NCBI GenBank assembly: GCA_019634795.1
Contig: JAHCAR010000003.1
Span: forward strand, 1-64,000
Direction: 5' to 3'
DNA: 64,000 bases
Origin: Dokdonella sp.
GTDB lineage: Bacteria > Pseudomonadota > Gammaproteobacteria > Xanthomonadales > Rhodanobacteraceae
The position numbers and the translations under genes were made by a program. Below, piece by piece: positions 5,104-52,183 of the stretch. Each line of letters starts with the position of its first letter. Positions within the stretch are counted from its first letter, which is position 1. Under the pieces are notes generated by a model. It searched no databases and was not told where the DNA came from. It worked only from the letters and a program-made list of their open reading frames with translations.

Positions 5104-5304
5104 CTATGGGTCGAATCCATCCTCGAACAACGTGTCGTCCACAACATGCACGGCGTAGCGACCGGCGGAGGCCTGGTCGCTGCCGTTGAAGTCAGGGTCG
5201 CCGTAGGTCGTTACGCCGATGCAGTAGCGGCCGGATGTCGCCAAGGTGCCGGTTTCGAGGCGTGCGTTGAATTGCTCTCGCAGCCGTTCAATCTGCGCGA
5301 ACAC
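5104..5304 (-). pseudogene. Orphan 3' end of an exported protein gene, ending in an LFEDGFDP tail
   Basis: The open frame is only 66 codons and overlaps the gspE stop by 17 nt. From about residue 24 it reads like the end of a large secreted protein (SGRYCIGVTTYGDPDF, then RYAVHVVDDTLFEDGFDP). The final residues match the GF[DE] tail of five long exported proteins in this window. No signal peptide or upstream domain exists. I read it as a remnant whose 5' part was lost, probably when gspE or its flank was rearranged. A real 66-aa protein cannot be excluded. Confidence 0.6.
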
Positions 5305-6970
5305 GCCAGGCCTCGGTCAACGAGATTGCGCCGCTGCGCGCCAGGGCCACAGCCGCCTGCGTGATCGGGATCATGCCTTCGGCGATAGCCGCTTCATGCA
5401 GGGCATCGGCATCGGCGCCGGGCACGATGAGACGGCGCAATCGCGGCGTCATCACCATCAGTTCGTACACGGCCTGGCGGCGGAATACGCCGAGCCCCTC
5501 GCAGTGATGGCAGCCGCGGCCGATCTGGAATTTCTCATCGGCAGCGATACCCAGCGTTTCGCGGACATGCATGTCCACGGCTTCCTCGACGCGGCAATGC
5601 TGGCAGGTCAGGCGCACCAGTCGCTGCGAGATCACGGCGAGCAGTGAGGTGCGCAGCAGATAGGACTCCACGCCAAGGTCGAGCAGGCGAGTGACGGTTG
5701 TGGCAGCGGTATTCGTGTGCAGGGTGCTCAGCATGAGATGGCCGGTCAGCGCGCTCTCGACGGCGATGTCGGCGGTCTCGCGATCGCGGATTTCCCCGAC
5801 CATGATCACGTCGGGATCGTGACGGAGAAAATTGCGCATTGCGCTGGCGAATGTGAAGCCGGCGGCGCGGTTGACCTGCATCTGCTGGATGTCGGCGATA
5901 TGGAATTCGACCGGATCCTCGATCGTGAGGATGTTGATGCGCTGTTTGCGCAGTTCCATCAGCATGGCGTAGAGGGTCGTGGACTTCCCGCAACCGGTCG
6001 GTCCGGTGGCGAGGAACATGCCGTGGCTGCGTGCCATGACGTCCTCGACGCGTCTTCGGTCGGCTTCGCTGAGGCCGAGTTCGTCGAGATTCCAGAGGCT
6101 TTCGGTCGTATCGAGCAGGCGGATGACGATGCTCTCTCCGAATACCGTTGGAAGCAGCGAGATGCGCAGGTCGACGCTGCGTGCGTCGTCGATGTGGAAT
6201 GTCGTGCGACCGTCCTGCGGCCGCCGGTGCTCAGCGAGATTCATTCCCGCGAGGACCTTGATCCGGCTGACCACGGCCGGATTCAGGGCGCGTGCCAGCC
6301 GGCGCACCGGAACGAGCTCGTCGTCGATCCGGAAAAGTACGTCGGTGGCGTTCTCCCCGGGGCGCAAGTGTATGTCCGATGCGCGTCGGCTGACCGCGTC
6401 GGCAATCAGCGTGTGGACCATGCTCACGACCGGCATTTCCAGGGCGAGACGTTGTGCTTCCTGTTCGCTGGGCGACTGCGCGTCGATGATGTCCGTGTCG
6501 AGGCCGAGTTGCAGGGCCATCGCACGATCTTCGACCTGGTCGTAATGCCGCGCGATGGCCTCGCGGATCTGAATTGGGGATGCGACCAGGGGCAGGACTC
6601 TTTCACGGCTCAGAAAGTCGAGCAGGCGCTGGGCATCCGGCCCGCTGGGGTCTTCCATGGCCACGGCCAGCAATCCCTTGTGCAGGCGCAGTGGGACCGC
6701 GCGGAGGCGGCGGGCGAGATCGGGTGGAATCAGAGCCAGCGCGTCGGATTGAGCCGAAATCCGTTCGAGTCGCACAAGCGGCAGACCGAGGGATTGCGCG
6801 ATCGCGTAGGTCGGTTCGCCAGCGTCTTCCCCGAGTGCCAGCCAGGTCTTCTGGTCGATCGCCGGGTAGCCCCTCTCGGCATAGACGTTCGGAAAGTTGC
6901 GAAGATAGTCGTCCAGGGCGACGGCATCGGCCAGCAAAGGGGGTTTGATGGTCAGGATGTCGCGGGTCAT
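5288..6970 (-). CDS. gspE: GspE/PilB-family secretion ATPase (type II secretion system E-like)
   Basis: A 560-aa cytoplasmic hexameric ATPase of the type that powers type II secretion or type IV pilus assembly. It shows Walker A GPTGCGKST near residue 325, an Asp box (DPDVIMVGEIRDRETA), a His box (LSTLHTNTA), and a zinc tetracysteine region (CQHC, then CHHC about 25 residues on) typical of GspE. I use the ATG at 6970; the frame stays open to 7216, but the extra 82 codons do not resemble a GspE N-terminus. No other gsp or pil gene is near, so the choice between GspE and PilB roles rests on the family features only. Confidence 0.85.
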   Translation of the reverse strand: MTRDILTIKPPLLADAVALDDYLRNFPNVYAERGYPAIDQKTWLALGEDAGEPTYAIAQSLGLPLVRLERISAQSDALALIPPDLARRLRAVPLRLHKGLLAVAMEDPSGPDAQRLLDFLSRERVLPLVASPIQIREAIARHYDQVEDRAMALQLGLDTDIIDAQSPSEQEAQRLALEMPVVSMVHTLIADAVSRRASDIHLRPGENATDVLFRIDDELVPVRRLARALNPAVVSRIKVLAGMNLAEHRRPQDGRTTFHIDDARSVDLRISLLPTVFGESIVIRLLDTTESLWNLDELGLSEADRRRVEDVMARSHGMFLATGPTGCGKSTTLYAMLMELRKQRINILTIEDPVEFHIADIQQMQVNRAAGFTFASAMRNFLRHDPDVIMVGEIRDRETADIAVESALTGHLMLSTLHTNTAATTVTRLLDLGVESYLLRTSLLAVISQRLVRLTCQHCRVEEAVDMHVRETLGIAADEKFQIGRGCHHCEGLGVFRRQAVYELMVMTPRLRRLIVPGADADALHEAAIAEGMIPITQAAVALARSGAISLTEAWRVRAD

Positions 6971-7628
6971 TGAAGGTCCGGTTCGAGTCGTCAGGCTGGC
7001 GGTGCTGCTCGTTCCGATGCAGTGGTCAGTTCCGACCGATTGCGCGCCGAACGGGTTTTTAACTGTGGGGGCATCAGGCAGTTCGAAGCGATTTCCTGGG
7101 CCTCCCTGCCGGATATAGCAAGAACGGGGCCAGACCAGCGATTTGACGGAAGAAGCGGGAGGGATCACGAGGACATCCACCCTATCCAGAGGCCAGAGGC
7201 CAGTGGGCGAGGGCACCGCATGGGCAAGTGCGGCAGTCGAACAGGGTCTCTGGCGTCGGGGACGTGCCAGATTGGGCGTGCAAAGCGCCGCAGTTGACGA
7301 CTAAAGGGGATGCTCGAGCTGCTGGATCGTGCTCGGTTGGCAGTAGACCGATCTTTTGCTATTGCGTCAGTGAATCAGGCTTCTTGTCGTCGCAGCAGGG
7401 ATTGCGCGCTGCCGATGCCCTTGAGCCGGGATTGTCCGATGGCGGCGGCCTTCTCGATCAATGATTGAGCGGTGCCGACGGCTCGCCAGTGGCGAGTCCA
7501 AGAGCCGAGCATTTGCCGGTGTCATTGGCTCACGGTGCGCCGTCGAGCCGGGCCCTCCAGCAACGGAATGACGGCCATTGCTCGAGGGACAAACTGGCGG
7601 TTCCCGAGGGTCTCGAAGGATTCCGAGG
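6971..7628. other. 658-bp interval without a supported gene
   Basis: This lies upstream of gspE and downstream of the propeller gene, both on the minus strand. It should carry the gspE promoter, but I see no convincing -35/-10 pair or terminator hairpin. A 45-codon minus-strand frame at 7375-7512 has plausible composition but no ribosome-binding site. Confidence 0.4.
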
Positions 7629-10478
7629 TTAGTCGAATCCGTTCTTGAAGAGGCTCTGGATGACCTTCGAGCGCGCGAAGTTGTTGATGGTATCGGGTTC
7701 GCTGAGGCTGGTGGGTCCGTAGGTGCCGACGCCGATGTAGTTCGTCTCCGCGCCGTCGATGACACGAGCCTGGCCGTCGATGGTGAGCAAGCCGCCCGGA
7801 AGGATGTCGAAGGTCGCGTTGACGCTGCCGAAGCGGGTATCGACCGAGCAGTTACTCGCACTGACAGGCGTGCAGACGACCGAGCTGATTCCGCCTTGCC
7901 AGGGCAGGTAGCCGAACAGGTGGGCGGAGGTAATGGGCTGGTCGCCGGTGTAGTTCACCGTCATGTGAAAGCCGACATCCTGGCCAGGCGAAGCGGCGGA
8001 GGTGTCGACGGTCAGGCTTGCGGAAAGATCGCCGCTTGCCAGCACGCTGGTATCGATCAAGGCAAGGCCGGTAGTGGCGGGTGAGGGTGCTTCAATTGAC
8101 GTGGAGGTCGCCAGGACCGATCCGTCCGTCGGCCAGGAAAGCGGATACCAGTAGCGTGAAGCGGAGGCGGCGTCGAGCGGCATCGGAGTCACCAGCTGCT
8201 GTCCAAGCACGGTCCCTGTTGTCGGGTCGAACCTGGCGATGTACTGGAAGCTGATCGAGGTGGAAAGGAGGGAACGACGCAGCATCAGTTCGATGTTTCC
8301 CGACGGTGTCAGCAGCGGGGAGTGCGCCGATTGGGACAGGATCGGACTGGCGGGGCTCAGCACCCATTGCTCGACGATTCCGCTGCCGTCGTTGTGGAAT
8401 CGGCGGACAACCGGCGTCGAATTGACCCCGAGCGCCGTCAGGGCGTCGCCGTTCGGGAGCGTGATGAAACCCGATGCGCTGCAGAACGTGCAGCCATAGG
8501 GGGCGCTGGCGACAGTCCATGCTGCCGCGCCGGTGCTGACGTCGATCTTTGCGTTGTTTTGCTCGCTCGAGAAAATCACGTGTTGGGGGTCAACGCGGTA
8601 GAACCCGAAGTAGGAGCCGTCGCCCGAAAACAGCGTGGTCGACCAAAGTTCCGATCCGTCGGCCCCAGAGAGCCGCGCCAGGGTCTTGTTCGAGCCATCC
8701 AGGGGGCCGGCCAGGACCACGTCGTTGCCGAACAGCTCGAACGTTCTCAGCCAGTTGCCCGCGCGATCGGTGTTCCAGAGAATGGCTCCGGACTGCCTTG
8801 AAAACTTGTACATGCGCGTATGCGAGCAGGTACTGCTGCCGCAGGCCAGATCGATATTGACAACAACGTAGACGTTGCCGTCTGCATCGATATCCGGCCC
8901 CACGGTGTACGTGCCGGTCTGGGTCGGCTCGTAGAGGACAGCGCTCCATTGCTTGCTTCCGGTGGTGCGATCGTACAGACCGATCTGGAAGGCGCTGTCC
9001 GCCGGGGCAAGGTTGCCGGGGCGAGTCAAGGTGCTGAGTACCGCGACGAGATCATCTTTGATGGTGAAATCGGCGGGCTGCCAGAATTGGGGCGTGAAGA
9101 ACTGATCCCCAAGTGTAATGTCGTCGACGGTTTCCCACTGGGTTCCGCCGGTGCCTGCGTCGACCGCACGAATGCGCAGTTTCGGACCAGTTGGACTCGG
9201 GTCATGGGCGACACTGATGACCTGGGTTCCGTCGACTTTCGAATTGCCTTGCACGCCTTGGTCAACGAACGGAACCGGATCCAGGGCCAACAGACTTCCG
9301 CTTGGATAGTCGATGGGTTGCACGAACGGAGGTGCAGCCTTGTTGACGTTGTAGGTGGTCGCAAGCCCGAGAATCCGGTTGTTGGCGAGGCCGCCGAATT
9401 GTTGCCAATAAAGCGGGTCTCCGTCTCCATTCACGACAGGCAAGGGCGTCGACCAGGCGATTGCGCCGGTCGTCGCATTGAGCCTGATCAGGGAATTACC
9501 TGCGTTGACCAGAATCGAAGTGTCCACGGACCTGGCGAAGTGGCCATTCGTCAGCGGCTGCGACCACCTCTCCATGCCGGTGTCTGCAGCCAGGCGACGG
9601 ATCGAGTCGTCTCCGACGAGAACCAGCTCCGAAGGTGAATCCTTGGTGGTAATGCCCGAAACATAGTTCCCGGGCTGGATGGTCCAGGCTACGCTGCCAT
9701 CGGTCTGGCGAAATGCGCGAAGGTCGGGCCCGACCCGCACATAGAAATTGGTGTCGTCGATCCCGACCAGGGCGCCGACCTGTCCGCCGAACGTCGATCC
9801 GCCTGTTGTCTGGAAACTCGGGCTGCCATCGACGGCGAACTTCTCGACGTGCAGGACATCGGCCTGGTAGTAGGCGCTGTAGATATTGCCGAGGCCATCG
9901 ACCAACAGGCCGTCCAGGCTGCAGTTGCTGTTCGGCGCCGACCGGCGCTCCCAGAGAACATCGCCGGTGTTTGCATCGAGTACGCTGGTCCTGTTGCAAT
10001 TTCGCGTTGCCAGGCGTCCACCTGGCAGCATGGCCATCCAGACTGCCTGCATTTTGCGCGCCCAGGCAAGCCCACCATTCGGGGCGATGCGTGCGATCAA
10101 GGGATACTGTCCGTCACCCAGCGCGACAATTGCGCTGCCATCATCGTTGGCGATCAGTGCATTCGCCTGGTAGTAGTCCTGGCTGCTGTAGTTGTCCAGG
10201 TTGGCTACCCAGCGCAGGTTGCCGGCGCTGTCGAGACGAGTCACCTGGGCATTGAAGGGCGACGGGTTCACTCCGGCGAACAGGACATCGCCATCGCTGG
10301 AATAGGCGATCGGAGCTGTTGGCCCGTAGAAGGAGAACCCGGACGATACGAAGGGCGTCGACGTGTGGTTCCAGTCGTTTTGCCACAGCGGGCTGGCCAT
10401 CGTGCCTTGGGCCAGGGCGCATGATGCCATCGCGATGGCCATTGCTCGCGCGAACTTGAAGGGTTTGAGGCGATCCAT
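7629..10478 (-). CDS. Exported PQQ-like beta-propeller protein with LFKNGFD C-terminal tail
   Basis: A 949-aa protein. I chose the ATG at 10478 (upstream CGGAG), which gives a clear signal peptide (positively charged start, hydrophobic core, cleavage near MAS). Residues about 40-800 are repeats of the PQQ-like/quinoprotein propeller type, for example GSELWSTTLFSGDGSY and TGSKQWSAVLY, but no cofactor-binding set can be assigned. A domain of about 120 residues resembling DUF11/CARDB follows (SLTVDTSAASPGQDVGF). The last residues, LFKNGFD, match the tail shared by other propeller proteins here. It is probably secreted or surface-attached, with unknown ligand. Confidence 0.8.
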   Translation of the reverse strand: MDRLKPFKFARAMAIAMASCALAQGTMASPLWQNDWNHTSTPFVSSGFSFYGPTAPIAYSSDGDVLFAGVNPSPFNAQVTRLDSAGNLRWVANLDNYSSQDYYQANALIANDDGSAIVALGDGQYPLIARIAPNGGLAWARKMQAVWMAMLPGGRLATRNCNRTSVLDANTGDVLWERRSAPNSNCSLDGLLVDGLGNIYSAYYQADVLHVEKFAVDGSPSFQTTGGSTFGGQVGALVGIDDTNFYVRVGPDLRAFRQTDGSVAWTIQPGNYVSGITTKDSPSELVLVGDDSIRRLAADTGMERWSQPLTNGHFARSVDTSILVNAGNSLIRLNATTGAIAWSTPLPVVNGDGDPLYWQQFGGLANNRILGLATTYNVNKAAPPFVQPIDYPSGSLLALDPVPFVDQGVQGNSKVDGTQVISVAHDPSPTGPKLRIRAVDAGTGGTQWETVDDITLGDQFFTPQFWQPADFTIKDDLVAVLSTLTRPGNLAPADSAFQIGLYDRTTGSKQWSAVLYEPTQTGTYTVGPDIDADGNVYVVVNIDLACGSSTCSHTRMYKFSRQSGAILWNTDRAGNWLRTFELFGNDVVLAGPLDGSNKTLARLSGADGSELWSTTLFSGDGSYFGFYRVDPQHVIFSSEQNNAKIDVSTGAAAWTVASAPYGCTFCSASGFITLPNGDALTALGVNSTPVVRRFHNDGSGIVEQWVLSPASPILSQSAHSPLLTPSGNIELMLRRSLLSTSISFQYIARFDPTTGTVLGQQLVTPMPLDAASASRYWYPLSWPTDGSVLATSTSIEAPSPATTGLALIDTSVLASGDLSASLTVDTSAASPGQDVGFHMTVNYTGDQPITSAHLFGYLPWQGGISSVVCTPVSASNCSVDTRFGSVNATFDILPGGLLTIDGQARVIDGAETNYIGVGTYGPTSLSEPDTINNFARSKVIQSLFKNGFD

Positions 10479-11041
10479 GCGGGAACTCCGAAATGACTGA
10501 AATTGAAAGGAAATTCGTGTGTGCCGCCGAGTCGATGTCGCCGCGAGGGGGCGCCGATTGGTGCCCGGCGGCATGCGAGTTCTCATTCTATACGAGAAGC
10601 ATGATTTCACGCAGTTTTTGACCGAAGGAACTGGCAGGCCCCGCGACCTGGTACGAGAGGCTTGCGTCCGCGCCAGGTTCGATGCCCAGAACGTTCTGGA
10701 TCGTCCAGCGCGATCTGGCGCAATCCGGTCTACGCGCTGAGCAACAAGATCACCGTGCGTGAAGAAGCTGTTCGATTGCGTGGGCTGCTGGGGCGGTGCA
10801 GCAATCGACACCACCTACTGAAGATTCCCGCTGCGCCTGGGACTGGTAGGGTGTTGCGCAAACTCCAAATGCAGATCGCTCCGCGCTGCGGGTTGAACTC
10901 CGATTGCGAGAACTCGCGCCTCAAGCAAAGCGCATCGATTGACGTGCGCGTGGATTGTCTCCGTGCAATACAGCGGGGAGGCATTTCCGCCATCGCCACG
11001 TGAGCGACGTCCTCCCGAAGTGAGGCCGACCTGGCTTGTCC
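10479..11041. other. Divergent intergenic region, nothing specific seen
   Basis: It separates the minus-strand propeller gene from the plus-strand marR operon. Apart from the marR promoter beginning at 11042, I find no hairpin, repeat or supported small gene. Confidence 0.4.
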
Positions 11042-11070
11042 TTGACACGAGCCAGCGTGGCGGCTATATA
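11042..11070 (+). promoter_or_regulatory. Consensus sigma-70 promoter of the marR operon
   Basis: TTGACA at 11042-11047 is a perfect -35 hexamer. After exactly 17 bp, TATATA at 11065-11070 forms a strong -10. Transcription should start about 7 bp further on, inside or at the end of the adjoining palindrome. Confidence 0.8.
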
Positions 11071-27757: not shown

Positions 27758-27884
27758 TCAGTCGAACCCATCCGCGAAGATCGTGTCATCGAACTGAAGT
27801 TCGATCGCGCCGAGAAAGACCGGGCCATGGACATTGGCTAGCGCAGGCTGGTCGACGAGGGTGTGGGTTGCCACGAAAATCGCT
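27758..27884 (-). pseudogene. Orphan 3' end of an exported protein gene, ending in an IFADGFD tail
   Basis: The minus strand reads AIFVATHTLVDQPALANVHG, then GPVFLGAIELQFDDTIFADGFD and a TGA. No start codon or signal peptide belongs to it, and upstream of about 27884 the reading loses protein character. The tail is almost identical in form to those of the five long propeller proteins. It overlaps the beginning of the plus-strand AhpD-like ORF, so both lie at a rearrangement junction. Confidence 0.6.
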
Positions 27885-36291: not shown

Positions 36292-36652
36292 GGCCCAGGC
36301 GAGACAAGCGATGCTGCCGCCCTGGTTGGCGGCCTTGCCGGCCTGTCTTCAGAGCGATTGCCAGGCTGCAACCTGGCTGCAACCTGCCTGCGATCGGGCC
36401 GGGCCAGGCCCGGACCGGCGGGCAGGCTTGGGCGCGCCAAATCGGATTCCACCCATCGATTCGGTCGCCTTTGCGAATCCTGGCCCGATGGCCAGCATGG
36501 CCGCGGTTCGTCACCGGCATCCTCCCTGCAACGGATGCCGGGGAGCGAACAGGCGGGGGGAGTTGCGTCCAGGGACCTAGTCAGGAGCCCATGAAGTCGG
36601 TTACCTTTGGTGTCGGCTTGTCTCCATGCCGGAGACGTCAGGGGATACAGTT
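36292..36652. other. 361-bp divergent intergenic region with a short direct repeat
   Basis: A tandem GGCTGCAACCT unit (two copies, about 36363-36385) is the only structure I see. The region should carry promoters for the DUF2189 protein and the BNR-repeat gene, but no consensus boxes are evident. Confidence 0.4.
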
Positions 36653-39451
36653 TTGAACCGATATCCATTCTTGAGGGGTGGATTCGTCCGCGTGCACGCG
36701 GCGATCCTGATCAGTGTCCTGGCCATCGGCGCACATGCCGCCGACCCGGCCGGAGATGCAGCAGCGACGGCCTACAAGGCGACCCTGCGGGCATCGCCCT
36801 ATGTCACAGCGGAAACCTGTGCCGCGCTCGACGATCCGAAGAAGGCCAATCTGATGGACGGCCTGCTGTTCTTCCTGGCCAGGGCCTGCGGCCGCCAGGC
36901 GGAATTCATCGGACAGGTCGAGAGTGTCGACGCCGGCTTCCTGCCGCCGTACCTCGAACCGAATACCGATCTCAACGTCAGCAACCCGGCGAGCGATACC
37001 GGCAGCACGCGTACCCAGAGCGAAACCTCGATCGAGCGCGATCCGGTTACCGGCACGCTCTGCGCTGCGTACAACGATTCCTTTCATGGGGTTACCCAGA
37101 ACGTCGGCTTCTCCGGTTTCTCGCGTTCGACCGATGGCGGCAACACCTGGGTCGATCGCGGCGCGGTGAGCGCCGACGACAGTGGCGACCCGAGCCTGGT
37201 CTGGCGTCGGCAGGATGGCAAGTTCTATTACGCCGCGTTGCGCAACGGTGGTCTCGCGCTGTTCCGTTCGGATGACGACTGCCAGAGCTTCGTGCTGGTC
37301 AGCCAGTTCGCGACGAACAACGACGACAAGGAAATCATGGCCATCGACAACGAGCCGACGAGCCCGTTCTATGGTCGCATCTATATCGTCTGGACCGACT
37401 TCGGCAGCGGCTCGCGGATCTACAGCATCTTTTCCGCCGACGCCGGCGCGACCTGGTCGACCCAGCTCGCGATCAGTCCGGCGGGCGAGAGCAACCAGGG
37501 TGCCTGGCCGACCATCGCCCCGAACGGCGACATCTATGTCACCTGGCTGAAATGGTTGCCGCCGAACGGCTATCCGACCGGCAACATCGAAATTCCGATC
37601 CTGCGTTCGACGAATGGCGGCGTCAGCTACACAACCCTGACGCCGGCCACGACCAACAAGATCAATCCTCGCGAATCCGCGGCAACCAGCAGCTGCGGGC
37701 GCCCGGCGATCAAGGGCAACGTGCGCCTGCTGCCATCGCCGCAGATCACGTTCCGCAATGGCTACCTGCATACGGTTTACAGCTACGATCCGGACGGTCT
37801 GAACACCGGCGACGTCATCGACGTGTTCTATCGCCGCTACAACCCGACCACCTCGACCTGGGATCCGGAAGTCCGCATCAACGACGATGCGACCACGACC
37901 GACCAGTACCAGCCGACCATCTCGGTCGGATCGGCCGGACAGGTCACGGTCGGTTACTACAGCCGACAGCTCGATCCGAACAATCTGCAGATCGACTACT
38001 ACTCGCGTACGTCCTTCGACAATGGCGCGACCTGGTCCCAGCCGAGCGTCCGCCTGTCCGATGCTTCGAGCGCGATCGTGCTCGATACCTCGCTGGCGAC
38101 CTGCTACCACGGCGACTACGACCAGCAACTGCAGGATGACAACGGCCGCGCCCACTACCTCTGGTCGGATGATCGGGCCAGCACGCCCGACGTCTACACC
38201 GATCGGACCCTGGTCGGCACCAACTATCTGCTCGTGCCGGTGACCAGCAGTGTCGCCGTGTGCTCGCCCGCCGATGCCAACTACACGGTCAACGTCAACC
38301 AGTTCCTCGGCTTCAGCGAGCCGGTGACCCTGTCCGCCTCGGGCAATCCGGCCAACTCGACGGTCAGCTTCGGCACCAATCCTGTGGCGCCGGGCGGTTC
38401 GAGCACGGTGACCATCACGACGGCGGGCGTTGCCGCCGGAAACTCGATCATCGACATTTCCGGACTTTCGAGTCCCGGAGCGGTTGTCCAGACCACCGCC
38501 CTCGGGCTCAGCGTCTCGACGGCAGCACCCGCTGCGCCGGTGCTGAATGCGCCGGCGAACAACGCGACGGTGGTTCCGGTCCGCCCGACCTTCAGCTGGG
38601 CGGCTGCTCCGCAGGGTACGAACTACGTGCTCGAAGTGGACAATGAGCCGACGTTCGCGGCGCCGCTGACCTATACCGCCACCGTCACCGGGACCAGCCA
38701 CGTACCAACCTCGGATCTGCCGTCGAATACCGTGCTCTACTGGCGCGTGCGTTCGGACAACATCTGCGGTACCGGACCGAATGCTGCGACCTTCACCTTC
38801 ACGACGGTTCCCCTGCCGGGCGACTGCCCGATCGGCGCTGCGGCGAACAACGTCTATTCGACGGATTTCGAGGGCGACAACTCGGCCTGGACGCTTGGGG
38901 CGGGCAGTGTCGGCTCGAGCAACTGGGCGATTTCGACCGCGCGTCCGCATGGCGGCACCAACGCCTTCCTCGCGCAGGATCTGGCATCGCTCTCCGACCA
39001 GCGCCTGATTTCGCCGGCGATCGCGCTGCCGACCGGGCAGGACCCGCTGGCGCTGATTTTCTGGAGCGACCAGACCATCGAGCAGAACGGAGCGACGGCC
39101 TGCTATGACGGCGCGATCCTCGAGATTTCGACGGATGGCGGCGCCAACTTCACCCAGGTGCCGGGCGCGTCGGCCCTGACCGATCCGTACGAAGGCCCGG
39201 TCAGCGGATCGTTCCAGAATCCGCTGGCGGGATTGAATGCATGGTGTGGGGATCCGCAGGCCTATGTGCGCTCGGTGATCGATCTGACCAGCTATGCCGG
39301 GCAGACCGTGCAGTTCCGTTTCCGGCTTGGTAGCGACATCTCGGTGGGCCGCGCTCCGCAGGGCTGGTACATCGATGATGTCGCCGTGCAGTCTTGCCAG
39401 TCGGCCGTTTCCGATGTCATCTACGTCGACGGATTCGATCCGCCGATCTGA
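36653..39451 (+). CDS. Exported BNR/sialidase-like propeller protein with IYVDGFDPPI tail
   Basis: A 932-aa protein. I prefer the TTG at 36653 because AGGGGA lies about 8 nt upstream; an ATG at 36626 in the same frame lacks such a site. A signal peptide ends near IGAHA. Residues about 90-530 form a six-bladed-type propeller with Asp-box (BNR) signatures such as SRSTDGGNTWVDRG, SADAGATWSTQLA and SFDNGATWSQP. A fibronectin-III-like module (about 620-710) and a MAM/jelly-roll domain (about 745-915) follow. The tail IYVDGFDPPI matches the other exported propeller proteins. Sialidase activity is not implied, because no catalytic residues can be assigned. Confidence 0.8.
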   Translation: MNRYPFLRGGFVRVHAAILISVLAIGAHAADPAGDAAATAYKATLRASPYVTAETCAALDDPKKANLMDGLLFFLARACGRQAEFIGQVESVDAGFLPPYLEPNTDLNVSNPASDTGSTRTQSETSIERDPVTGTLCAAYNDSFHGVTQNVGFSGFSRSTDGGNTWVDRGAVSADDSGDPSLVWRRQDGKFYYAALRNGGLALFRSDDDCQSFVLVSQFATNNDDKEIMAIDNEPTSPFYGRIYIVWTDFGSGSRIYSIFSADAGATWSTQLAISPAGESNQGAWPTIAPNGDIYVTWLKWLPPNGYPTGNIEIPILRSTNGGVSYTTLTPATTNKINPRESAATSSCGRPAIKGNVRLLPSPQITFRNGYLHTVYSYDPDGLNTGDVIDVFYRRYNPTTSTWDPEVRINDDATTTDQYQPTISVGSAGQVTVGYYSRQLDPNNLQIDYYSRTSFDNGATWSQPSVRLSDASSAIVLDTSLATCYHGDYDQQLQDDNGRAHYLWSDDRASTPDVYTDRTLVGTNYLLVPVTSSVAVCSPADANYTVNVNQFLGFSEPVTLSASGNPANSTVSFGTNPVAPGGSSTVTITTAGVAAGNSIIDISGLSSPGAVVQTTALGLSVSTAAPAAPVLNAPANNATVVPVRPTFSWAAAPQGTNYVLEVDNEPTFAAPLTYTATVTGTSHVPTSDLPSNTVLYWRVRSDNICGTGPNAATFTFTTVPLPGDCPIGAAANNVYSTDFEGDNSAWTLGAGSVGSSNWAISTARPHGGTNAFLAQDLASLSDQRLISPAIALPTGQDPLALIFWSDQTIEQNGATACYDGAILEISTDGGANFTQVPGASALTDPYEGPVSGSFQNPLAGLNAWCGDPQAYVRSVIDLTSYAGQTVQFRFRLGSDISVGRAPQGWYIDDVAVQSCQSAVSDVIYVDGFDPPI

Positions 39452-42398: not shown

Positions 42399-44492
42399 TC
42401 AGGGCATCGTGGGGGCGGAGATCATCAAATCCATGTTCAGCGAAGTCAGGGTGACCGTCGCCAGGGCCCCGTTGGCCGAGATCGCGATGCTGGGGCCCGC
42501 GCCATTCGGAACGTGTTCATCGGAAATCGCTTCCGGCTCGCCATCGGGCAGTTGCAAGGACCACAGGCGGCCCTTGTCGCGATAGGAAAGCGTGCTGCCG
42601 CTCAAGGCAAAGGCCTCGGCCATGGCATCGCCGGCCAGGTTCAACTCACGGATTGCCCGGGGTTCGTTCACGGGCGCAAACCTGAGCACATTCGACCCTA
42701 CCGCGCGCCACACCAGCCAGTCGCCGGATGCGCGATAGGCCGCGACCGGTCCCAGTTCCAGGCTCTCGGGGTTCGCCTCGCCGGCGCGCAGTTGCATGAG
42801 CGTGCTCTGGGCGGTGCCGTGGCCAACCAGATAGAGCAGGCGATCGCGCAACTCGATGCCCTGGAACGCGCCCGGCTCGACATCGGGCAGCAAGGCAAGA
42901 ATGTCGCCGTCGAGTTGGTAGCGGTACAAGCGGGTTTGTCGATCTTCGTAGGCCGTGATGATCAGTGAGGAGTCGCGCGCGGACCAGGTCGGTCTGACCC
43001 AGCGAAAACCCGGATCGAGTGCGAGCTGCCGTGTATTGCCGGTAAGCGTGTCGTGGACGAAGATCGATTCGGCGCCGTTGCGGTTGCTGGCCAGGGCAAT
43101 GCGGTTTCCGTCGGCGGAGAAATCCGGTTGTGCCTCATAGCGCAGCGAGCGCGCGATGACGGTCCACGCGCCGCCAGGTTTGCTGCGCAGCCAGATGTCG
43201 GCATCGTAGTCGGCTTCCGACCAGACCGCGGCGCCGTTCGAGGCGATATCGATGGAACGCGCGCCGCGACCGCCGATCAGTTCGGGTCGGCCGCCCGGGC
43301 GCAAGCGGTGCAGCGCGCGATAGAGGGTCAGGTCGCCCGCCACCCAGAGGTTGCGCCCAGCCGGTTCGAAGGCATGGTCGTAGACCGGTTCGGGTCGCTG
43401 CAGCAGCGCAACGGAGGGTGCGATCTGCGGCCAGGGCGCGCGCCAGAGCTGCTGGTCGTCGCCATCGACGCTTGCGTAGACGATTTCCTTGCTGTCGGGG
43501 GACAGCCTCGGATCGACGTGGGCGCCGTCGCTCAGCATGGGTGCGGTCAGCCGGCGCAGCTCCCCGCTGCGTCGATCGAGCTGCGCCAGGCCGGGGGCAT
43601 GCAAGGCATCGACCGCGGCTCCGGTGTACACCAGCGAAGCCCCGGCATCGACCCATTCGACGCCACCCGATACTGAGTCGGCGCATTCGCCCAGCCGGGT
43701 GCGATGAGCGTCGACCACGGCCACGCTCCATAATTCGCAGCCGGTCGGCGTATGCCGGGTCAGGGCGATCTCGCGACCATCGGGCGAGGGCGCGGGATGG
43801 CGCAGCGCATGCGCGTCCTGCCAGAGCAGCCGCTCGGAGCGGCTGGCCGGATCGACCATGATCAGTTCGCTCGCCTCGCTGCCCAACGCAGAGCGGATAT
43901 AGACCACGCGCCCCAGCGGATCAAAACGTGCGTCGTATTCGAGACGCGGATCGGCAGTCAGCGGCTGGGCACTGAGCAGGTCGACGGCGAGCGTGGCCTG
44001 ATGCCTGACCCGACCAGCGTTGCCGGCCAATCCTTGCCAGGCGAACCAGAACACGGCAATGGCGGCGAGCGCCGGCACGACAAGGCGCGCGATCCGGAGG
44101 CCTTTGCCGGATGTCGGACTGTTCGTAATGCGCGTCGGTTTGGCAGTGTCGGGCGAGTGGTCCAGTTCAAGCGGGGCTATCCAGCGATAGCCGCCCTTGG
44201 GCAGGGTCTCGATGAAGCGTGGCTCGCGGGCGTCGTCACCGAGGATTGCGCGAAGTTCGGCAATCGCACGCGAGAGCACCTCATCATTGACCTGGGGTCG
44301 GGTCCAGACCTGTTCGATCAGGCACTCGCGCGTGAGCACGGTGCCCGGCTCGTCGAGAAGCCGCCGCAGCAGGCGATCGAGCAGGGGCTTCAGTCGAACT
44401 TCGCGTCCGCGCCCTGCCAGCAGGCGCTGCCCGGACACGTAGTGCCAATGCAGGAAATGATAGTGGCCTGTCGGCCCGGTCTGCTCGCCCAT
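42399..44492 (-). CDS. CadC/ToxR-like membrane regulator with TolB-like sensor domain
   Basis: A 697-aa single-pass regulator. The N-terminal OmpR/PhoB-type winged helix (about 10-110) shows [21 protein letters not shown] and [17 protein letters not shown] transmembrane helix follows at about 133-153 ([16 protein letters not shown]), and the remaining 540 residues are TolB/WD40-type propeller repeats ([42 protein letters not shown]). The layout suggests an extracytoplasmic propeller sensing a signal and DNA binding by the membrane-tethered head. It is divergent from the small propeller protein at 44750, a possible target. Confidence 0.85.
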
Positions 44493-44749: not shown

Positions 44750-45673
44750 ATGCCCTTCAGATTCGCATTCGTGGCACTTTCGCTGATCGTCGCGAGCACG
44801 GCGGCCTGCGCCCAGCCCTGCAGCCACCATCTGCTGGTCAGTGGCTATTTCTCCAACAATGTCGCGATTTATGACGCCTGCAACGGCACATTCCTGCGCC
44901 AGCTCGAACAGGCCGGCCGTATCCAGGGTGCGCAAGCCGTGCGATGGAACCCGGCGGACGACCTGATCTATGTGGTCAGCGAGGGCAACGACCAGATCCA
45001 GCGCTACCGCCGCAACGCCAGCTACGACTTCGTCGACGTGTTCGCGCAACTGGCCAGCAACTTCGACCCGACCGGTATCGAATTCGGCCTCGACGACGAG
45101 GTCTATGTGGCCAGCTACGGGCTCAGCAAAGTGATCGAACTGGATCCGGTCAGCGGTCTGGAGACAGGCGTGCTGCTGCCATCCGGCAGCGGCCTGCAGG
45201 GAGCCGACAATGGCCTGATGGCCAGCGTGATCGGACTTGTCTACGTGCCGGGATACGACTCGAGCAGCGTGGCCATGATCAACCCGGACAATGGTCAGGT
45301 CCAGGCGCAATTCGTGCCGCCCGGCACAGCCGGACTGTTCGAGACCCGCGGCATCGTCGACGAAGGGGCGACGATCCTGGTTGGCGGTGAGGGCAGCGGT
45401 GCGATCTACCGCTTCAATGCCATTAGCGGCGCCTACGTCGGCACGCTGGTCAGCGGGCTCAGCCGTCCGACCGGAATGGCTCTCGGCGTGGATGGTTCAT
45501 TGCTCGTGCTCACGGGCAATCGCGTACGCCGTTACGACCGCAGCACCGGTGCCGACCTCGGCGTGCTGGCGAACGGTGTCACGGGCGGAATTTCCGGAGG
45601 CACCTTCGTTGCGCTGGTGCCGATCACGGACTTCGACCCGATCTACAGCGACGGATTCGAGCTGCCCGAGTAA
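44750..45673 (+). CDS. Exported NHL/SMP-30-like propeller protein with IYSDGFELPE tail
   Basis: A 307-aa protein, almost entirely one six- or seven-bladed propeller: NPADDLIYVVSEGNDQIQRY, IEFGLDDEVYVASYGLSKVI, VDGSLLVLTGNRVRRYD. A signal peptide ends near TAACA; the ACAQPC stretch could even allow lipidation, but the lipobox is poor. The tail IYSDGFELPE belongs to the GF[DE] group. GGAG precedes the ATG at 44750. It lies divergent from the CadC-like regulator, so it may be under that regulator's control. Confidence 0.75.
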   Translation: MPFRFAFVALSLIVASTAACAQPCSHHLLVSGYFSNNVAIYDACNGTFLRQLEQAGRIQGAQAVRWNPADDLIYVVSEGNDQIQRYRRNASYDFVDVFAQLASNFDPTGIEFGLDDEVYVASYGLSKVIELDPVSGLETGVLLPSGSGLQGADNGLMASVIGLVYVPGYDSSSVAMINPDNGQVQAQFVPPGTAGLFETRGIVDEGATILVGGEGSGAIYRFNAISGAYVGTLVSGLSRPTGMALGVDGSLLVLTGNRVRRYDRSTGADLGVLANGVTGGISGGTFVALVPITDFDPIYSDGFELPE

Positions 45674-46060: not shown

Positions 46061-46234
46061 CCATCTCTCCCGGTTGTCGCATCATTGGACAACCATGGCG
46101 CGTTGCATGCAAGCCGGTGCGCGGGTGGCCTGTGATCTCCGTTCCAGCTCCGGATCGGTACTTTCGGCGGTTTCCGCTGGCAAGGCCGGTCTGCAAGGAT
46201 GTGCCGTCCCGCCCATTGCCGTTGCAGGTTGCGC

Positions 46235-46681: not shown

Positions 46682-46837
46682 GGACCGTACCCGGCTTCTG
46701 TCGAGCCAACGACGGGGGGATGGCCCCCGGATCGGTCATTTTCCGTTGTTAGAGGCAACACGGAAATCCGGGTGCATGCCATGTTGTCAGTGCTGGTTCT
46801 GTCATCGCGGGAATGGCTCTGGTCGCCATCGCGAATC

Positions 46838-49159
46838 ATGCCTTCGCGCATTCTATTCATCGCCATGATCCTCATGTGCGTGAGTACCGTGCACGCCGGA
46901 GCCCTGAACCTGCGTCAGACCCTCGGCGCGGTCCCTTCCGGCGAGGGCGTGGCGAACGGTCTGTTCGGCAACTCCGTCGCCATCGATGGCGATCTGGCCG
47001 TGGCCAGCAACCTGGGTGACACGCCGATCCCGGGCATCATTCGCACCTATGCCCGCAACGGCAGCAACTGGTCCTATCTGCCGGGCCAGGATATCGAGAT
47101 CCCGGGCGATTCGAGTGCCACGCTGGCCTTCAAGGAAGGCACGCTTGCGCTCAGCGCCTATGACAGCACGCGCAGCCGCAGCTACCTGCAGATCTATCGG
47201 CGCAGCGGGTCGGCCTGGGTCCAGGAATATTCCTCGTCGACGACCGCCAGAGTCTATGAAGCTGTCGCGGCGACCCAGAACATCGTGGTCATTGGAATTC
47301 CGAGCTATAGCGGTGTGGCCGGTGCCAGCCAGGGCAGGGCCATGGTCGCCCGGCGCGGTGGCACCGGAATCTGGTCGACCGTATTCCTCGATCCGCTCAC
47401 GCCGGAGGCCAACGCCCGATTCGGCACCTCGGTCGCGATCGAGGCCGGCACCGTCGTCGTCGGTGCGCCCGCGGAAACGGCCGGACAGGCCCAGGCCGGC
47501 GCCGCCTATGTCTTCGAGTTGACCATCGACACCTGGAGCCAGGTTGCCCGGCTGGTCGAGAACACCGCCGGCGATCATACGCAGAACCGGTTCGGCACCG
47601 CAGTTGCGATCAGCGGGACCGACCCCGCGGTGCCCGATCACATCGTCGTCACCACGCTCTCGAATCCAGCGACCTCGCGCGTCGGGCGTTTGTTCAGCAT
47701 CACCCGCAGCGGGGGCACCTGGTCGCAGTTCGGACCGCCGATCGTTGCCGGAACCGCCTCGGATGGTTACGGCTGCGCGGTCGCGATGGATGGCGTCTGG
47801 GCCATCGTCGGCATGTGCTCGCGCACGGGCCAGGCCTCGGGTTCCGGCGCGGTGGTTCTGATCCAGTACGCGGCCGATTTCAGCACTGGAAGCGGCGTCA
47901 TAGCCTCCGACCCGCAGGGCGGACCGAATGAATACCTCGGCAGTCGCATCGATATCGACCGCAATGGCCCGAACCTCATCGTCGGCAACCCCAACGCCGC
48001 GCGATTCAACAATCCGGCCCAGGGCGTGTTGCTTTTCGCCAGCGTGCAGTCGCTGGTCTCGTTCGCGCTGACCCGCCAGGCCGACCTTGGCCAGGGGCTG
48101 ACCGGCGCCTATGCATCGGTCGTTGCGGTGGATGGCGATACCCTGATGATCGGTGCACGGCAGGAGGATGTCGGCGCACAGCTGCAGCGCGGGGCGGTCT
48201 ATGTCTACCAGCGTGGCGCAGACGGAAACTACGTCTACCAGAGCCGACTGCTGGCGCCTGACGGCATGACCGATGACCATTTCGGCTCGGTGATCGCCCT
48301 GCAGGGCGATATCGCCCTGATCAGTGCCACGGGCAGGTCCTTCAACGGCGAGCCCCAAGGCGGGGCTGTCTACGTGTTCCATCGGGATGCCGGCGCGTGG
48401 TCGCTCGAGGCGCAACTGTTCCCGGCCGCGTCGGGCTACGAGATCACTTTTGGCTACAGCCTGGCGTTCGACGGGGACACCGCAGTGATCGGCGAATTCG
48501 GCGTGAATACGACCGTCTACCAGCGCAGCGGCGGCGGCATCTGGACGCCGATGCAGAGCATCCCGCACCGGGCCTGGGCGGCCCAGCTCAGCGGCGATCT
48601 GATGATGCTCGGCGACTCCAATGTCGACTTCGGTTCCAACAATGTCGGGGAAGTCGCCGTGTATGCGCGCAACGGCGGGATCTGGCAGGCCGAGCCTTCC
48701 TTGCCCGGAACGGTGGCCGATCAGGGCTTCGGTCGCGGCATCAGCTTCGACGGCACGCTGTTGGCGGTCGCAAGCCTGCAGGCCATGCGACCGGTCGCGC
48801 TCTATCGGCGCACGGCCAATGGCTGGTTGCCGGACGGCAACGTCCTGCCCGACGACGCCAGCGCCGACATGAGCTGCCCGCAGGTGTCCTTGCGCAACGG
48901 CGTGCTGGTTCTGGGCTGCTCGAAGCCGGCCTACCAGGGCGCGGCCTACGTCTTCAGGAAAATCGGCGGCGTCTGGGCGCAGACCCAGAAGCTGCAGCTC
49001 GCCGACGCGCGTGCGAACGACCTGTTCGGCTTCGACCTTGCCCAGTCCGCCGACGGATCGCCGTTCATCGGCGCACTCGCGCGCGACATCGAGTTCGTCG
49101 ACCAGGGCGCGGTCTACTACTACGCGGACGATACATTGTTTGCCAGCGGATTCGAGTGA
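46838..49159 (+). CDS. Exported FG-GAP repeat propeller protein with LFASGFE tail
   Basis: A 773-aa protein with signal peptide (ILFIAMILMCVSTVHA). About twelve FG-GAP-like repeats follow, each opening with a phrase such as LFGNSVAIDGDLAVAS, RFGTSVAIEAGTVVVGAP or HFGSVIALQGDIALIS, the blade pattern of integrin-alpha-type propellers. It ends DDTLFASGFE. No enzymatic motif is seen, so surface binding is the likeliest role. The ATG at 46838 gives the signal peptide; another in-frame ATG at 46772 would add 22 residues. Confidence 0.8.
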   Translation: MPSRILFIAMILMCVSTVHAGALNLRQTLGAVPSGEGVANGLFGNSVAIDGDLAVASNLGDTPIPGIIRTYARNGSNWSYLPGQDIEIPGDSSATLAFKEGTLALSAYDSTRSRSYLQIYRRSGSAWVQEYSSSTTARVYEAVAATQNIVVIGIPSYSGVAGASQGRAMVARRGGTGIWSTVFLDPLTPEANARFGTSVAIEAGTVVVGAPAETAGQAQAGAAYVFELTIDTWSQVARLVENTAGDHTQNRFGTAVAISGTDPAVPDHIVVTTLSNPATSRVGRLFSITRSGGTWSQFGPPIVAGTASDGYGCAVAMDGVWAIVGMCSRTGQASGSGAVVLIQYAADFSTGSGVIASDPQGGPNEYLGSRIDIDRNGPNLIVGNPNAARFNNPAQGVLLFASVQSLVSFALTRQADLGQGLTGAYASVVAVDGDTLMIGARQEDVGAQLQRGAVYVYQRGADGNYVYQSRLLAPDGMTDDHFGSVIALQGDIALISATGRSFNGEPQGGAVYVFHRDAGAWSLEAQLFPAASGYEITFGYSLAFDGDTAVIGEFGVNTTVYQRSGGGIWTPMQSIPHRAWAAQLSGDLMMLGDSNVDFGSNNVGEVAVYARNGGIWQAEPSLPGTVADQGFGRGISFDGTLLAVASLQAMRPVALYRRTANGWLPDGNVLPDDASADMSCPQVSLRNGVLVLGCSKPAYQGAAYVFRKIGGVWAQTQKLQLADARANDLFGFDLAQSADGSPFIGALARDIEFVDQGAVYYYADDTLFASGFE

Positions 49160-49483
49160 TCGACAGACACGACGGCAAGGATCCGCTGCTGCAGGCGGCA
49201 GTCCGCTGACAGCGCGCGCCAGCGCGACTCGGTGCCAGTTCCGGCGCCACGGCGTGAGCGACGAATTTCTTGCTGCACTCGGCTGGCCCAAGGATCGGCA
49301 GTCACGACACGTGGTGTCACGGCAGGTCGAGGCTATGACACGCGCAATGCACCAGTGCGCTCTGGGTGTTTTTCCCCCTCATCGATGAAGCACATCGGGC
49401 AGTGACCCTGCCTCCCGCCTCGTGCAGCATGGCTGCATCGACCCCGAAAATCGGTCCGGGGCGCGCGTAGAGGAGCAATCAAC
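49160..49483. other. 324-bp interval between two propeller genes, nothing specific seen
   Basis: No hairpin or supported ORF stands out. The kelch-like gene downstream has its own good ribosome-binding site, so this region may contain its promoter. Confidence 0.35.
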
Positions 49484-52183
49484 ATGAAACGACAGCTTGC
49501 TATCCTGCTGGCCGGGCTGATTCCGGCCGCCGGCGCAATGGCGAGCGGGTCGCTGAGCGAAGCGGCCCGAGCGGACTGTCATCGGGAAGTGGCCCAGGTC
49601 TACTGGCAGGCGCGCATCTGGCCCGAGTCCAATCCGCGAGCGAAACCGGCATTTTCCGAGCGGCTCGGCAGCGCCGCCATAGCGGCGATCGCCGACCAGG
49701 TCGTGGCCCGGTCGGTGGCACTCGAGACCTACTGGAACGTGCCGATAACCGGACCGATGCTGCAGGCCGAGCTCGAGCGGATGGCGCGATCGAGCAGACG
49801 CCCGCAGCTGCTTCGGCAGTTGTTCGATGCGCTGGAAAACGATCCCCTGCGGCTGGCCGAGTGTCTGGCCCGCCCGTCCCTGGCCGAACGCCTGTTGCGT
49901 CAGCGCTTCGATTCCGATCCTTCTCTTGCAGCTCAGCCGTTCAGTGAGTGGTGGGCAGCGAATCGCCCGTCCACGCAGCGATTCGTGGCTCCTGCCTGGG
50001 ACTACACCGTTCCGGCAATCCGTGTTGCATCGGGTTCCGCCGGACAGTGGTTCGATACGGCGTCCGCGCCACTGCGCAACAGTAACGGCAATGTCCGGGG
50101 CACGGCGGTCTGGACAGGCACCGAGATGGTCTATTTCAACGACTTCGCCCGTGAAGCCTATCGCTATGACCCGGCCCTCGATGTCTGGCAGACGACTTCG
50201 ACGCTCGGCGGTCCGCTCGGCCTGCGCGACACGACTGCGGTCTGGACCGGCGAGCATGTCATCGCATCGCACGGATGCACCGCCAACAATCACAATTGCA
50301 CGACCGGGGCAGCCTGGCGCTACGACCCCCAGCTCGATCGCTGGGAATCGTTGCCGAGCGCTCCGATCAGCCGCACCGACCAGGGCGCGGTCTGGACCGG
50401 CACCGAGATGCTGGTCTGGGGCGGATGCACCTACGCCCAGGACGCCTGTCAGGTCTTTTCTTCCACGGGCGCCCGGTTCAACCCTTCGACCAACCAATGG
50501 CAACTCATGAGCAGTGACGGTGCTCCGCCTGGCCGGTCGTTCCTGAACCTCCTATGGACCGGCAGCGAAATGATCGTCTGGGGCGGACTGGCCGGAAATC
50601 CTTCCGGCGGCCGCTACGATCCGACGACGGACACATGGCAGGGCATGAGCCAGGCCGGCGCGCCGGCCGGCGCGATCGGCAGCGCGGTCTGGAGCGGCAG
50701 CGAAATGCTTGCCTGGGGCGGCTGCACCGGCTCGCCACAGTGCAACATCCCGTCCGCGACGGGTGCGCGCTATCGGCCTGATACCGATACCTGGTCCGCG
50801 ATGAGTACCGACAATGCGCCAGCGGCGCGCTTTTTCCACACGGCCGTTTGGGCCGGCTCCGAAATGATCGTATGGGGTGGCTACGACGGAACGGCCTACC
50901 TCAATTCCGGCGCGCGCTACGATCCTGCGGGCGATCGCTGGACCGGCATGAGCACGTCCAATGCACCGGTTGGGCGACGCGATCACCAGTTCCTGTGGAC
51001 GGGCTCCAAGGTCCTGGTCTGGGGTGGATTTGGCGGACCAGGGGACATGCGCAGCGGTGCCCGCTACGATGTCGCCAGCGATACCTGGGCCCCGATCGAC
51101 ACTAGCGATCCCGATACGCTGCGAACCAATCATTCTGCGGTCTGGACCGGTGCTGAAATGATCGTCTGGGGTGGCGCGGGTGACAACTCGGCCAGCACCG
51201 GAATGAACACGGGCCGCCGATACGATCCGGCTACCGACAGCTGGTCGGCCACGAGCACGGTCGCTGCCCCGCCTGGGGCATGGGATGCCAGTGCGGTCTG
51301 GACGGGCAGCGAAGTGATCGTATGGGGCGGGCAGTCGGGCAGCCAGGTGCGCGATACCGGAGCCCGTTACGACCCGGTCAGCGACAGCTGGACCCCAATG
51401 GCTACGAATGAGGGCCGAACGGACAACGCCTATGTCTGGAGCGGTACCGAGATGCTGGTCTGGGGTGGTTCGACCCCGAACAGCCCGTGGACCGACACGG
51501 GTGCCCGATACGATCCCGTGTCGAACAGCTGGGCGCCGATGTCGACGATCGGCGCGCCATCGCCTCGCACCAGCCATGGCCGCGCCGCGTGGTCGGGAAG
51601 TGAAATGCTGGTCTGGGGTGGTTTCGGGCCGACCGGGGAAGTGGCCGGCGGCGGCCGCTACGATCCGCAAATGGATGCCTGGTCCACGATCAGCAGCAGC
51701 GGCGCGCCGTCGCCCCGCTACGGGCATGCGCTGGTCTGGGACGGTCAGCACATGATCGTCTGGGGCGGCGCCGAGTACTCGCCCGAGGTATTGCTCGCCA
51801 GCGGTGGCCGCTACGACCCATCGAAGGACAGCTGGAGCGCGATCAGCCTCGACAATGCTCCGATGCCCGCGCGTTTCGCCAGCACGGTCTGGACCGGTAC
51901 CGAGATGATCGTCTGGGGCGGCATCTGTAACCAGCCGACGCAGCCCACTTGCCATACCGACAGTTACGAGGGCGGTCGCTACGACCCCGGATCCGACCAG
52001 TGGACAGCCACTTCGCTGGACGGCGTGCCGGAAGCGCGAAGCTTCCATTCCGCAGTCTGGACCGGCGACGCGATGATCGTCTGGGGTGGAATCGGGACCT
52101 GGAGCGGATACCGGAATACCGGCGGCGTCTACCGTCCGCAAGGGCCTTTGCCGGACATGATCTTCGCTGGTGGATTCGAATGA
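49484..52183 (+). CDS. Exported kelch-like propeller protein with 14 blades and IFAGGFE tail
   Basis: An 899-aa protein. A signal peptide ends near AGAMA. Residues about 22-165 are helical and unrecognised. From about 205 there are 14 repeats of roughly 50 residues built on AVWTGTEMIVWGG followed by ARYDPxxDxW, a kelch-like motif. Fourteen blades would make two seven-bladed propellers. The repeats are also close at DNA level, around the coding words for VWTGTEM and VWGG. The tail is IFAGGFE. GGAG precedes the ATG at 49484. Confidence 0.8.
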   Translation: MKRQLAILLAGLIPAAGAMASGSLSEAARADCHREVAQVYWQARIWPESNPRAKPAFSERLGSAAIAAIADQVVARSVALETYWNVPITGPMLQAELERMARSSRRPQLLRQLFDALENDPLRLAECLARPSLAERLLRQRFDSDPSLAAQPFSEWWAANRPSTQRFVAPAWDYTVPAIRVASGSAGQWFDTASAPLRNSNGNVRGTAVWTGTEMVYFNDFAREAYRYDPALDVWQTTSTLGGPLGLRDTTAVWTGEHVIASHGCTANNHNCTTGAAWRYDPQLDRWESLPSAPISRTDQGAVWTGTEMLVWGGCTYAQDACQVFSSTGARFNPSTNQWQLMSSDGAPPGRSFLNLLWTGSEMIVWGGLAGNPSGGRYDPTTDTWQGMSQAGAPAGAIGSAVWSGSEMLAWGGCTGSPQCNIPSATGARYRPDTDTWSAMSTDNAPAARFFHTAVWAGSEMIVWGGYDGTAYLNSGARYDPAGDRWTGMSTSNAPVGRRDHQFLWTGSKVLVWGGFGGPGDMRSGARYDVASDTWAPIDTSDPDTLRTNHSAVWTGAEMIVWGGAGDNSASTGMNTGRRYDPATDSWSATSTVAAPPGAWDASAVWTGSEVIVWGGQSGSQVRDTGARYDPVSDSWTPMATNEGRTDNAYVWSGTEMLVWGGSTPNSPWTDTGARYDPVSNSWAPMSTIGAPSPRTSHGRAAWSGSEMLVWGGFGPTGEVAGGGRYDPQMDAWSTISSSGAPSPRYGHALVWDGQHMIVWGGAEYSPEVLLASGGRYDPSKDSWSAISLDNAPMPARFASTVWTGTEMIVWGGICNQPTQPTCHTDSYEGGRYDPGSDQWTATSLDGVPEARSFHSAVWTGDAMIVWGGIGTWSGYRNTGGVYRPQGPLPDMIFAGGFE

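Follow-up and report, generated by a model that had tools for sequence, protein, structure and literature searches.

Why should exported proteins of different fold families end in the same few residues? This question is raised by the first 64,000 nucleotides of contig JAHCAR010000003.1 of Dokdonella sp. (assembly GCA_019634795.1, forward strand), the whole of the analysed stretch and hereafter called the window, in which five complete propeller-like proteins and two gene remnants share a C-terminal motif of the form [ILV][FY]x[DNGS]GF[DE]. We conclude, with a probability of roughly 0.7, that this tag directs proteins, as a short linear address, to a type II secretion system (T2SS) of their own, here named system C.

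Reading of the window confirmed all seven tails at the stops given in the initial annotation. On the reverse strand, LFKNGFD (7632..7652, stop at 7629) ends a PQQ-like propeller protein (P0001; open reading frame (ORF) 7629-10814, likely start near 10478). On the forward strand, IYVDGFD followed by PPI (39419..39448, stop at 39451) ends a BNR / choice-of-anchor J-like protein (P0002; ORF 36626-39451), IYSDGFE followed by LPE (45641..45670, stop at 45673, likely start at 44750) a ScyF-like propeller protein (P0003), LFASGFE (49136..49156, stop at 49159) an FG-GAP protein (P0004; ORF 46772-49159) and IFAGGFE (52160..52180, stop at 52183) a kelch protein (P0005; ORF 49484-52183). The two orphan copies are on the reverse strand. 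LFEDGFD plus P (5107..5130, stop at 5104) ends a gene remnant of 66 codons, which overlaps the 3' end of a GspE-like gene. IFADGFD (27761..27781, stop at 27758) ends a short remnant with, by eye, a choice-of-anchor-Q-like ending, which resembles the end of the tagged protein L033 of the same genome (64% over 25 residues, E 5e-5). An aspartate precedes the motif by two residues in six of the seven tails.

Signal-peptide-like starts were found in all five complete proteins, as had been claimed, by a crude score that takes the best of the possible starts. The claimed assignment to five different propeller families stands in part: PQQ_2 (P0001), FG-GAP_2 (P0004) and kelch (P0005) exceed their Pfam cut-offs, P0002 has BNR_2 just below the cut-off and an InhA-like MAM domain above it, and the 'NHL-like' P0003 is weakly assigned, with only a weak PQQ_2 / ScyF-like match. 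Among the NCBIfam and Pfam matches listed for the window proteins none reaches a tail, in agreement with the initial annotation, which knew of no named domain for it. Over stretches of 257-2338 bases, the window genes are 66-81% identical to the named loci that match them best.

Frequency and anatomy of the tag

The 3.87-Mb assembly holding the window contains 106 sites that match the DNA pattern for [hydrophobic][FY]xxGF[DE], compared to seven for the reversed pattern used as control. With an immediate stop codon, the numbers are 21 and 0. In context, 99 of the 106 sites were examined (C3:61549 plus six others were left out), and 77 of these form the C-terminus of ORFs with signal-peptide-like starts. 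The other 22 comprise two C-terminal sites without such a start, six near the N-terminus, six internal and eight other sites; the N-terminal and internal sites all lie in ORFs with signal-peptide-like starts, although C4:102515 (N-terminal) is probably antisense noise. The signal-peptide score is crude, taking the best of many starts. A stricter version with an added size and codon-bias filter, which remains crude, found signal-peptide-like starts in 45 of 51 tag-ended ORFs and in 64 of 154 others from the same stretches, in line with the suspected bias towards exported proteins.

The 79 C-terminal copies give the consensus D(65)-x-I(61)/L(17)-F(75)-A(40)-D(42)/N(18)/S(9)-G-F-D(48)/E(31). The search pattern did not include the aspartate at -2, yet 65 of the 79 copies have it. 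A stop follows the tag after 0-3 residues in 67 of the 79 copies, and after 0-15 residues over all of them. Phenylalanine is encoded by TTC in 76 of the 79 tails. The glycine codon (GGC 37, GGA 24, GGT 10, GGG 8) and the last codon of the tag (GAC 33, GAG 18, GAT 15, GAA 13) are varied, which points to a constraint on the protein, and a mobile DNA repeat was rejected. Between the two phenylalanines, the x-[DN]-G stretch may form a tight hairpin.

A set of 84 aligned cargo sequences, composed of C-terminal copies plus the N-terminal and internal cases and excluding open-ended ORFs, matched 73 different Pfam families. The motif could in principle be a chance pattern or the end of a shared C-terminal domain. 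Chance is contradicted by the reversed-pattern controls and a shared domain by this diversity of families together with the lack of any conservation before position -2 across the 79 tails; we give either explanation almost no credence. The initial annotation had named both, together with an equal frequency in cytoplasmic proteins, as outcomes that would refute its reading.

The tag is not strictly C-terminal. Five copies stand directly behind the signal peptide (SP), and examples of N-terminal copies are SP-ADRLYSDGFDPP (C1:111483), SP-GDHVFDAGFD (C1:277679) and SP-AQLYVDGFDPP (C49:3792). Among all ORFs examined, two proteins of distant genomes end in tandem tags, DAIFADGFEVLDRIFANGFEP (G075) and DGLFWDRFEKPADELFWDRFEQ (G473). 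The tag is thus a self-contained, movable unit of nine residues, and its N-terminal, internal and tandem copies make it look more like a movable tag for docking than a strictly C-terminal processing signal. In L113 and L118 (genus g8), which by eye resemble S8 peptidases, the tag lies in-chain and seems to separate the pro-region from the catalytic domain.

Choice-of-anchor Q proteins account for 16 of the 84 tagged sequences, CSLREA for seven and delta-60 for five. Single tagged members belong to choice_anch_I, MXAN_5453 (a MYXO-CTERM-anchored family) and rhombotarget A. These cargo families are ones that bear sorting tails elsewhere. Choice-of-anchor Q proteins with transmembrane-plus-basic tails were also observed, namely L191 (G008), L193 (G405), L189 (G407), L210 (G398) and L187 (G465). 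Genome G398 has both kinds, tagged and with the transmembrane-plus-basic tail.

Some relatives of the cargo use the known sorting routes PEP-CTERM/exosortase or GlyGly-CTERM/rhombosortase, and the tag could be a form of one of these. However, the 79 tails feature no conserved transmembrane helix or basic end; the early stop and the lack of a conserved upstream helix bear out the initial view that the tail is unlike PEP-CTERM. The distributions of both enzymes also mismatch that of the tag. Exosortase was matched in ten of 20 tag-positive genomes (the other ten have no match, so that it was rejected as partner), in four of 20 tag-negative genomes and in two of four genomes of genus g249. Rhombosortase exceeded its cut-off in two of 44 genomes, both tag-negative, and was likewise rejected. 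A known route is therefore extremely improbable. The window itself contains a gene for a rhomboid-family protease (3386-4864, reverse strand; PF01694, 76 bits), which adjoins the orphan tag at 5104. As a rhombosortase it scores 20 of the 84 bits of the cut-off and was discarded; all of the 44 genomes searched have weak matches to rhomboids.

Distribution of the tag and of system C

Within the samples taken, the tag is restricted to parts of a single order (Xanthomonadales/Lysobacterales). Among 117 genomes sampled from the family, those rich in tag-plus-stop sites belong to the strain's own genus (8/8), g14, g16, g26 and part of g8, and the rest have 0-1 sites. The highest tag-plus-stop counts outside the family, in a class sample of 275 genomes, were six in G225 (reversed pattern 1) and five in G265 (reversed pattern 2), followed by several genomes at four, e.g. 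G120 (control 0), compared to 21 and 0 here; these are raw pattern counts, and the order is represented in this sample by only three other genomes. Across 250 genomes sampled from the order, the narrower pattern FA[DN]GF[DE] is widespread but patchy, with 4-46 sites per genome in families f166-f169 and f175, 1-22 in f172, four in f170 and f174 and 0-5 in f171, while f1, f2 and f173 are split by genus. An exact 24-base form of the tag was found in 23 stretches of a named-genome collection. Of these, 22 are labelled Dokdonella, Lysobacteraceae, Rhodanobacteraceae, Lysobacterales or Xanthomonadales and one only 'Gammaproteobacteria bacterium'.

In view of this patchy occurrence, secretins were searched for a gene of the same distribution, using PF00263 in 27 genomes. 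The resulting tree comprises 60 secretins from 12 tag-positive genomes and 10 genomes negative for the tag in its GF form; it leaves out the tag-positive G391 and G433, the negatives G010, G126 and G405 and one 549-residue match in G017. Apart from a few long-branch rows, the sequences form PilQ (clade A), the GspD of an xps-like T2SS (clade B) and a third clade C (support 100/99). Clade B is represented in all 22 genomes. Every one of the 12 tag-positive genomes has a single clade C secretin, and so do two of the 10 negatives, both of genus g249, which uses a variant tag. Within genus g8, two tagged genomes have clade C and two untagged ones lack it. The negatives without clade C fall into about four groups, f1 (G005, G013, G017), g8 (G061, G008), f171 (G396) and f2 (G271, G416), corresponding to about four matched losses, or gains, on the secretin tree.

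The clade C secretin is encoded in an operon gspC-gspD-gspE. In the genome holding the window it lies on contig C19 (L122), with gspC at 4103-5044, gspD at 5242-7293 and gspE at 7293-8783. All three products exceed the curated NCBIfam cut-offs (GspC 104 bits, cut-off 101.6; GspD 574, cut-off 351; GspE 678, cut-off 630), so that system C scores as a T2SS. The GspC of this system (GspC-C) matches T2SSC and PDZ_2/PDZ_6 with E 0.01 or better at 14 of 14 loci; the PDZ scores of the L122 copy (25 and 22 bits) are just below the Pfam cut-off of 27. A gspF gene stands beside the operon in six of the 14 loci, which span at most 14 kb. Pseudopilin genes were identified only in a clade B operon, and pseudopilins may be shared between the systems.

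In several f1 and f2 genomes (L122, L128, L150 and others) the operon adjoins a gene which we take to encode a DEAD-box helicase, and in some it also stands beside what is presumably a thioredoxin-like gene, both named by eye. The window contains a gene for a GspE/PilB-like ATPase with an MshEN domain (5288-7216, reverse strand), which is below the NCBIfam cut-offs for GspE and PilB and whose 3' end overlaps the remnant with the orphan tag at 5104. It was rejected as the GspE of system C, having 44% identity over 353 residues where clade C GspE copies are 52-83% identical to the one in this genome. A further window gene (42399-44492, reverse strand) joins a transcription-regulator domain to WD40-like propeller repeats.

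A GspC-C profile was then crossed with the tag counts over the same 250 order genomes. The E-values form two groups, separated by a gap from 1e-30 to 1e-37. Based on 175 genomes at least 95% complete, of which seven with 3-4 sites were set aside, and on cut-offs chosen after the tables had been viewed (E below 1e-35; at least five versus 0-2 sites), 44 tag-rich genomes have GspC-C and one lacks it, and 15 tag-poor genomes have it and 108 lack it. The only two tag-rich genomes among the 53 of family f2 are also the only two with GspC-C below 1e-35. Eleven of the 15 tag-poor genomes with GspC-C belong to g249 and one to g255 (both of family f173), which leaves G025, G444 and G459. Over all completenesses, six tag-rich genomes lack GspC-C, namely G443 (97%) and G430, G440, G488, G537 and G540 (77-94%).

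This distribution bears on a further explanation, in which the tag is a glue: exported tagged proteins would bind each other or a surface scaffold via small beta-hairpins, and system C would merely export them. The tandem copies, the many cargo proteins per genome and the putative x-[DN]-G turn between aromatic residues are consistent with such a role, but it leaves unexplained why one secretin lineage, and not any T2SS, tracks the tag. We regard a glue as quite improbable.

A variant tag in genus g249

If system C reads the tag, genus g249, in which the machine is present and the GF tag is at chance level, should have some tag. Choice-of-anchor Q proteins were picked by family and not by tag, and their closed ORFs were counted, 16 from g249 and five from system-negative genomes; nine further ORFs run off the locus or are from genus g255. 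The expected tag was found as a variant on this same protein family. Eleven of the 16 ORFs of g249 end in an RF form in which G is replaced by R, such as IFSDRFEQP, VFQDRFEQP, IFRDRFEEP, IFGSRFD and similar, with one copy also having Q for E. Two of the other ORFs have transmembrane tails and three have neither, although L209 (G421), counted as untagged, has an RF match in frame just past its domain. None of the five closed ORFs of the system-negative genomes G008, G405 and G416 has a tag.

The pattern F-[STRCW]-DRFE occurs at least three times in 23 of 30 g249 genomes and more than twice in two of the 220 others, G505 (six) and G525 (four), both of family f173. Among the eleven tag-poor, system-positive genomes of g249, nine have at least three RF sites, G427 has two and G465 has none. 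Of the three closed ORFs of genus g255 (G407), one carries a GF tag (ILFEDGFES), one has the less strict end DTIFIDSYE and one a transmembrane tail. This genus may use looser variants of the tag (DTIFIDSYE beside ILFEDGFES; L208, L203). Among the candidate residues of GspC and GspD that change with the RF variant, the position of GspD-C that corresponds to residue 269 of L122 is acidic in 12 of 12 RF users and in none of 18 GF users. The RF users form one clade, so residues of GspC or GspD that change with the variant are no evidence.

Several observations weigh against system C as the reader of the tag, beside the late choice of cut-offs. Distant matches to full-length GspC (1e-23 to 1e-30) occur in five f2 genomes that have 0-2 sites. 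G443, which is 97% complete and has five sites, lacks GspC-C, and G025, G444 and G459 have it with only 1-2 sites. G465 has GspC-C without any GF or RF match, and its sole choice-of-anchor Q protein ends in a transmembrane tail. A Fisher test on the table of tag and GspC-C ignores kinship, the secretin tree giving about four separate matched losses. The genes profiled were secretins, GspC-C, exosortase and rhombosortase, and another gene could share the profile.

In another explanation the tag would be a surface-anchoring or processing signal for a periplasmic or outer-membrane enzyme or receptor, with system C co-inherited or carrying the cargo unread. In favour of this, the cargo families are anchored proteins elsewhere, and in the system-negative genomes G008 and G405 one choice-of-anchor Q ORF each (L191 and L193) ends in a transmembrane-plus-basic tail. 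The N-terminal, internal and tandem copies are a poor fit to C-terminal processing by a single cut, and the tight co-distribution with one T2SS lineage speaks for system C instead. Taken together, we consider anchoring or processing unlikely.

Proposed mechanism and relation to known systems

The initial annotation proposed a recognition tag for type II secretion or for an outer-membrane attachment step. Its type II part is supported by the co-occurrence with one GspC-GspD-GspE set and by the variant tag of g249; from these comparisons we infer the physical recognition, the secretion and the binding component. Tagged proteins would be exported across the inner membrane by Sec or Tat (by eye, C12:202932 and C34:41774 have Tat-like RR starts) and then fold in the periplasm, leaving the tag exposed, in most cases at the C-terminus, in some at the mature N-terminus and rarely in a linker. 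A periplasmic part of system C, which comprises GspC-C, GspD-C and GspE-C and in some genomes a neighbouring GspF, would then bind the tag, and the folded cargo would pass out through the GspD-C secretin. It is rather probable that this T2SS reads a linear, transplantable, position-independent tag that co-evolves with its machine, as in the GF-to-RF switch of one genus, and probable to a like degree that such a tag serves a dozen to about a hundred proteins per genome.

The tag would most likely dock at the PDZ-like end of GspC-C, with the N-domains of GspD-C or the pseudopilus tip as alternatives. A classical PDZ ligand requires a free C-terminus. Copies that are N-terminal, internal or extended by 0-15 residues do not have this feature, which also counts against our reading; a classical C-terminal ligand was thus rejected and a carboxylate-binding mode is unlikely. 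An internal beta-finger mode of binding, as described from eukaryotic PDZ work, is possible.

Compared to known systems, the tag resembles GlyGly-CTERM/rhombosortase, PEP-CTERM/exosortase and MYXO-CTERM/myxosortase in being short and spread across many unrelated exported proteins, with overlapping cargo families. The partner genes of those systems were discovered by matched distribution. Unlike their tails, the tag lacks a conserved transmembrane helix and basic end, can also stand at N-terminal, internal and tandem positions, and tracks a secretin lineage and not exosortase or rhombosortase. It is likewise similar to the C-terminal domain of Type IX secretion, a terminal address on many unrelated surface or secreted proteins, but that domain is folded, comprises about 80 residues and uses other machinery, whereas the tag has nine residues. 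System C scores as a T2SS (NCBIfam), like the xps-like T2SS of Xanthomonadales, from whose operon (clade B) it differs by its separate secretin clade and the order gspC-gspD-gspE. MYXO-CTERM is defined, partly following PMC11980579, by an invariant cysteine in its motif, a hydrophobic helix, a basic end and myxosortase; the 79 tails, compared on the tail sequence, have no conserved cysteine or helix. For GlyGly-CTERM, PMC13393428 describes a tail for membrane association, with a separate secretion signal still needed.

The PDZ of GspC-C is favoured as the reader because, according to PMC12369372, the PDZ of Vibrio cholerae EpsC is required to secrete VesB, and a VesB-domain fusion was captured by beads with bound PDZ. 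The present case would be similar in that a GspC PDZ end is needed for, and apparently binds, a subset of T2SS cargo, and that paper cites PelI and OutC as a further case of this kind. The information there resides in a folded Ig or Fn3 domain (same source), whereas here it would be a putative linear tag of nine residues on unrelated folds. Both PMC12369372 and PMC7949064 assign the cargo information of T2SS to folded parts, and a universal linear signal is said to be lacking (PMC12369372). No description of the tag was found among the matches listed from the open-access literature searched, and those listed for the tag string were all unrelated.

How T2SS choose their folded cargo is a long-standing open question. 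If our reading is true, the tag would be a linear T2SS secretion signal of the kind that recent work calls lacking (PMC12369372). With a short tag and a candidate partner that is defined genetically, cargo choice can be tested directly. The tag would also give a small handle for exporting folded proteins, and it would help to predict the secretomes of many environmental Xanthomonadales from sequence.

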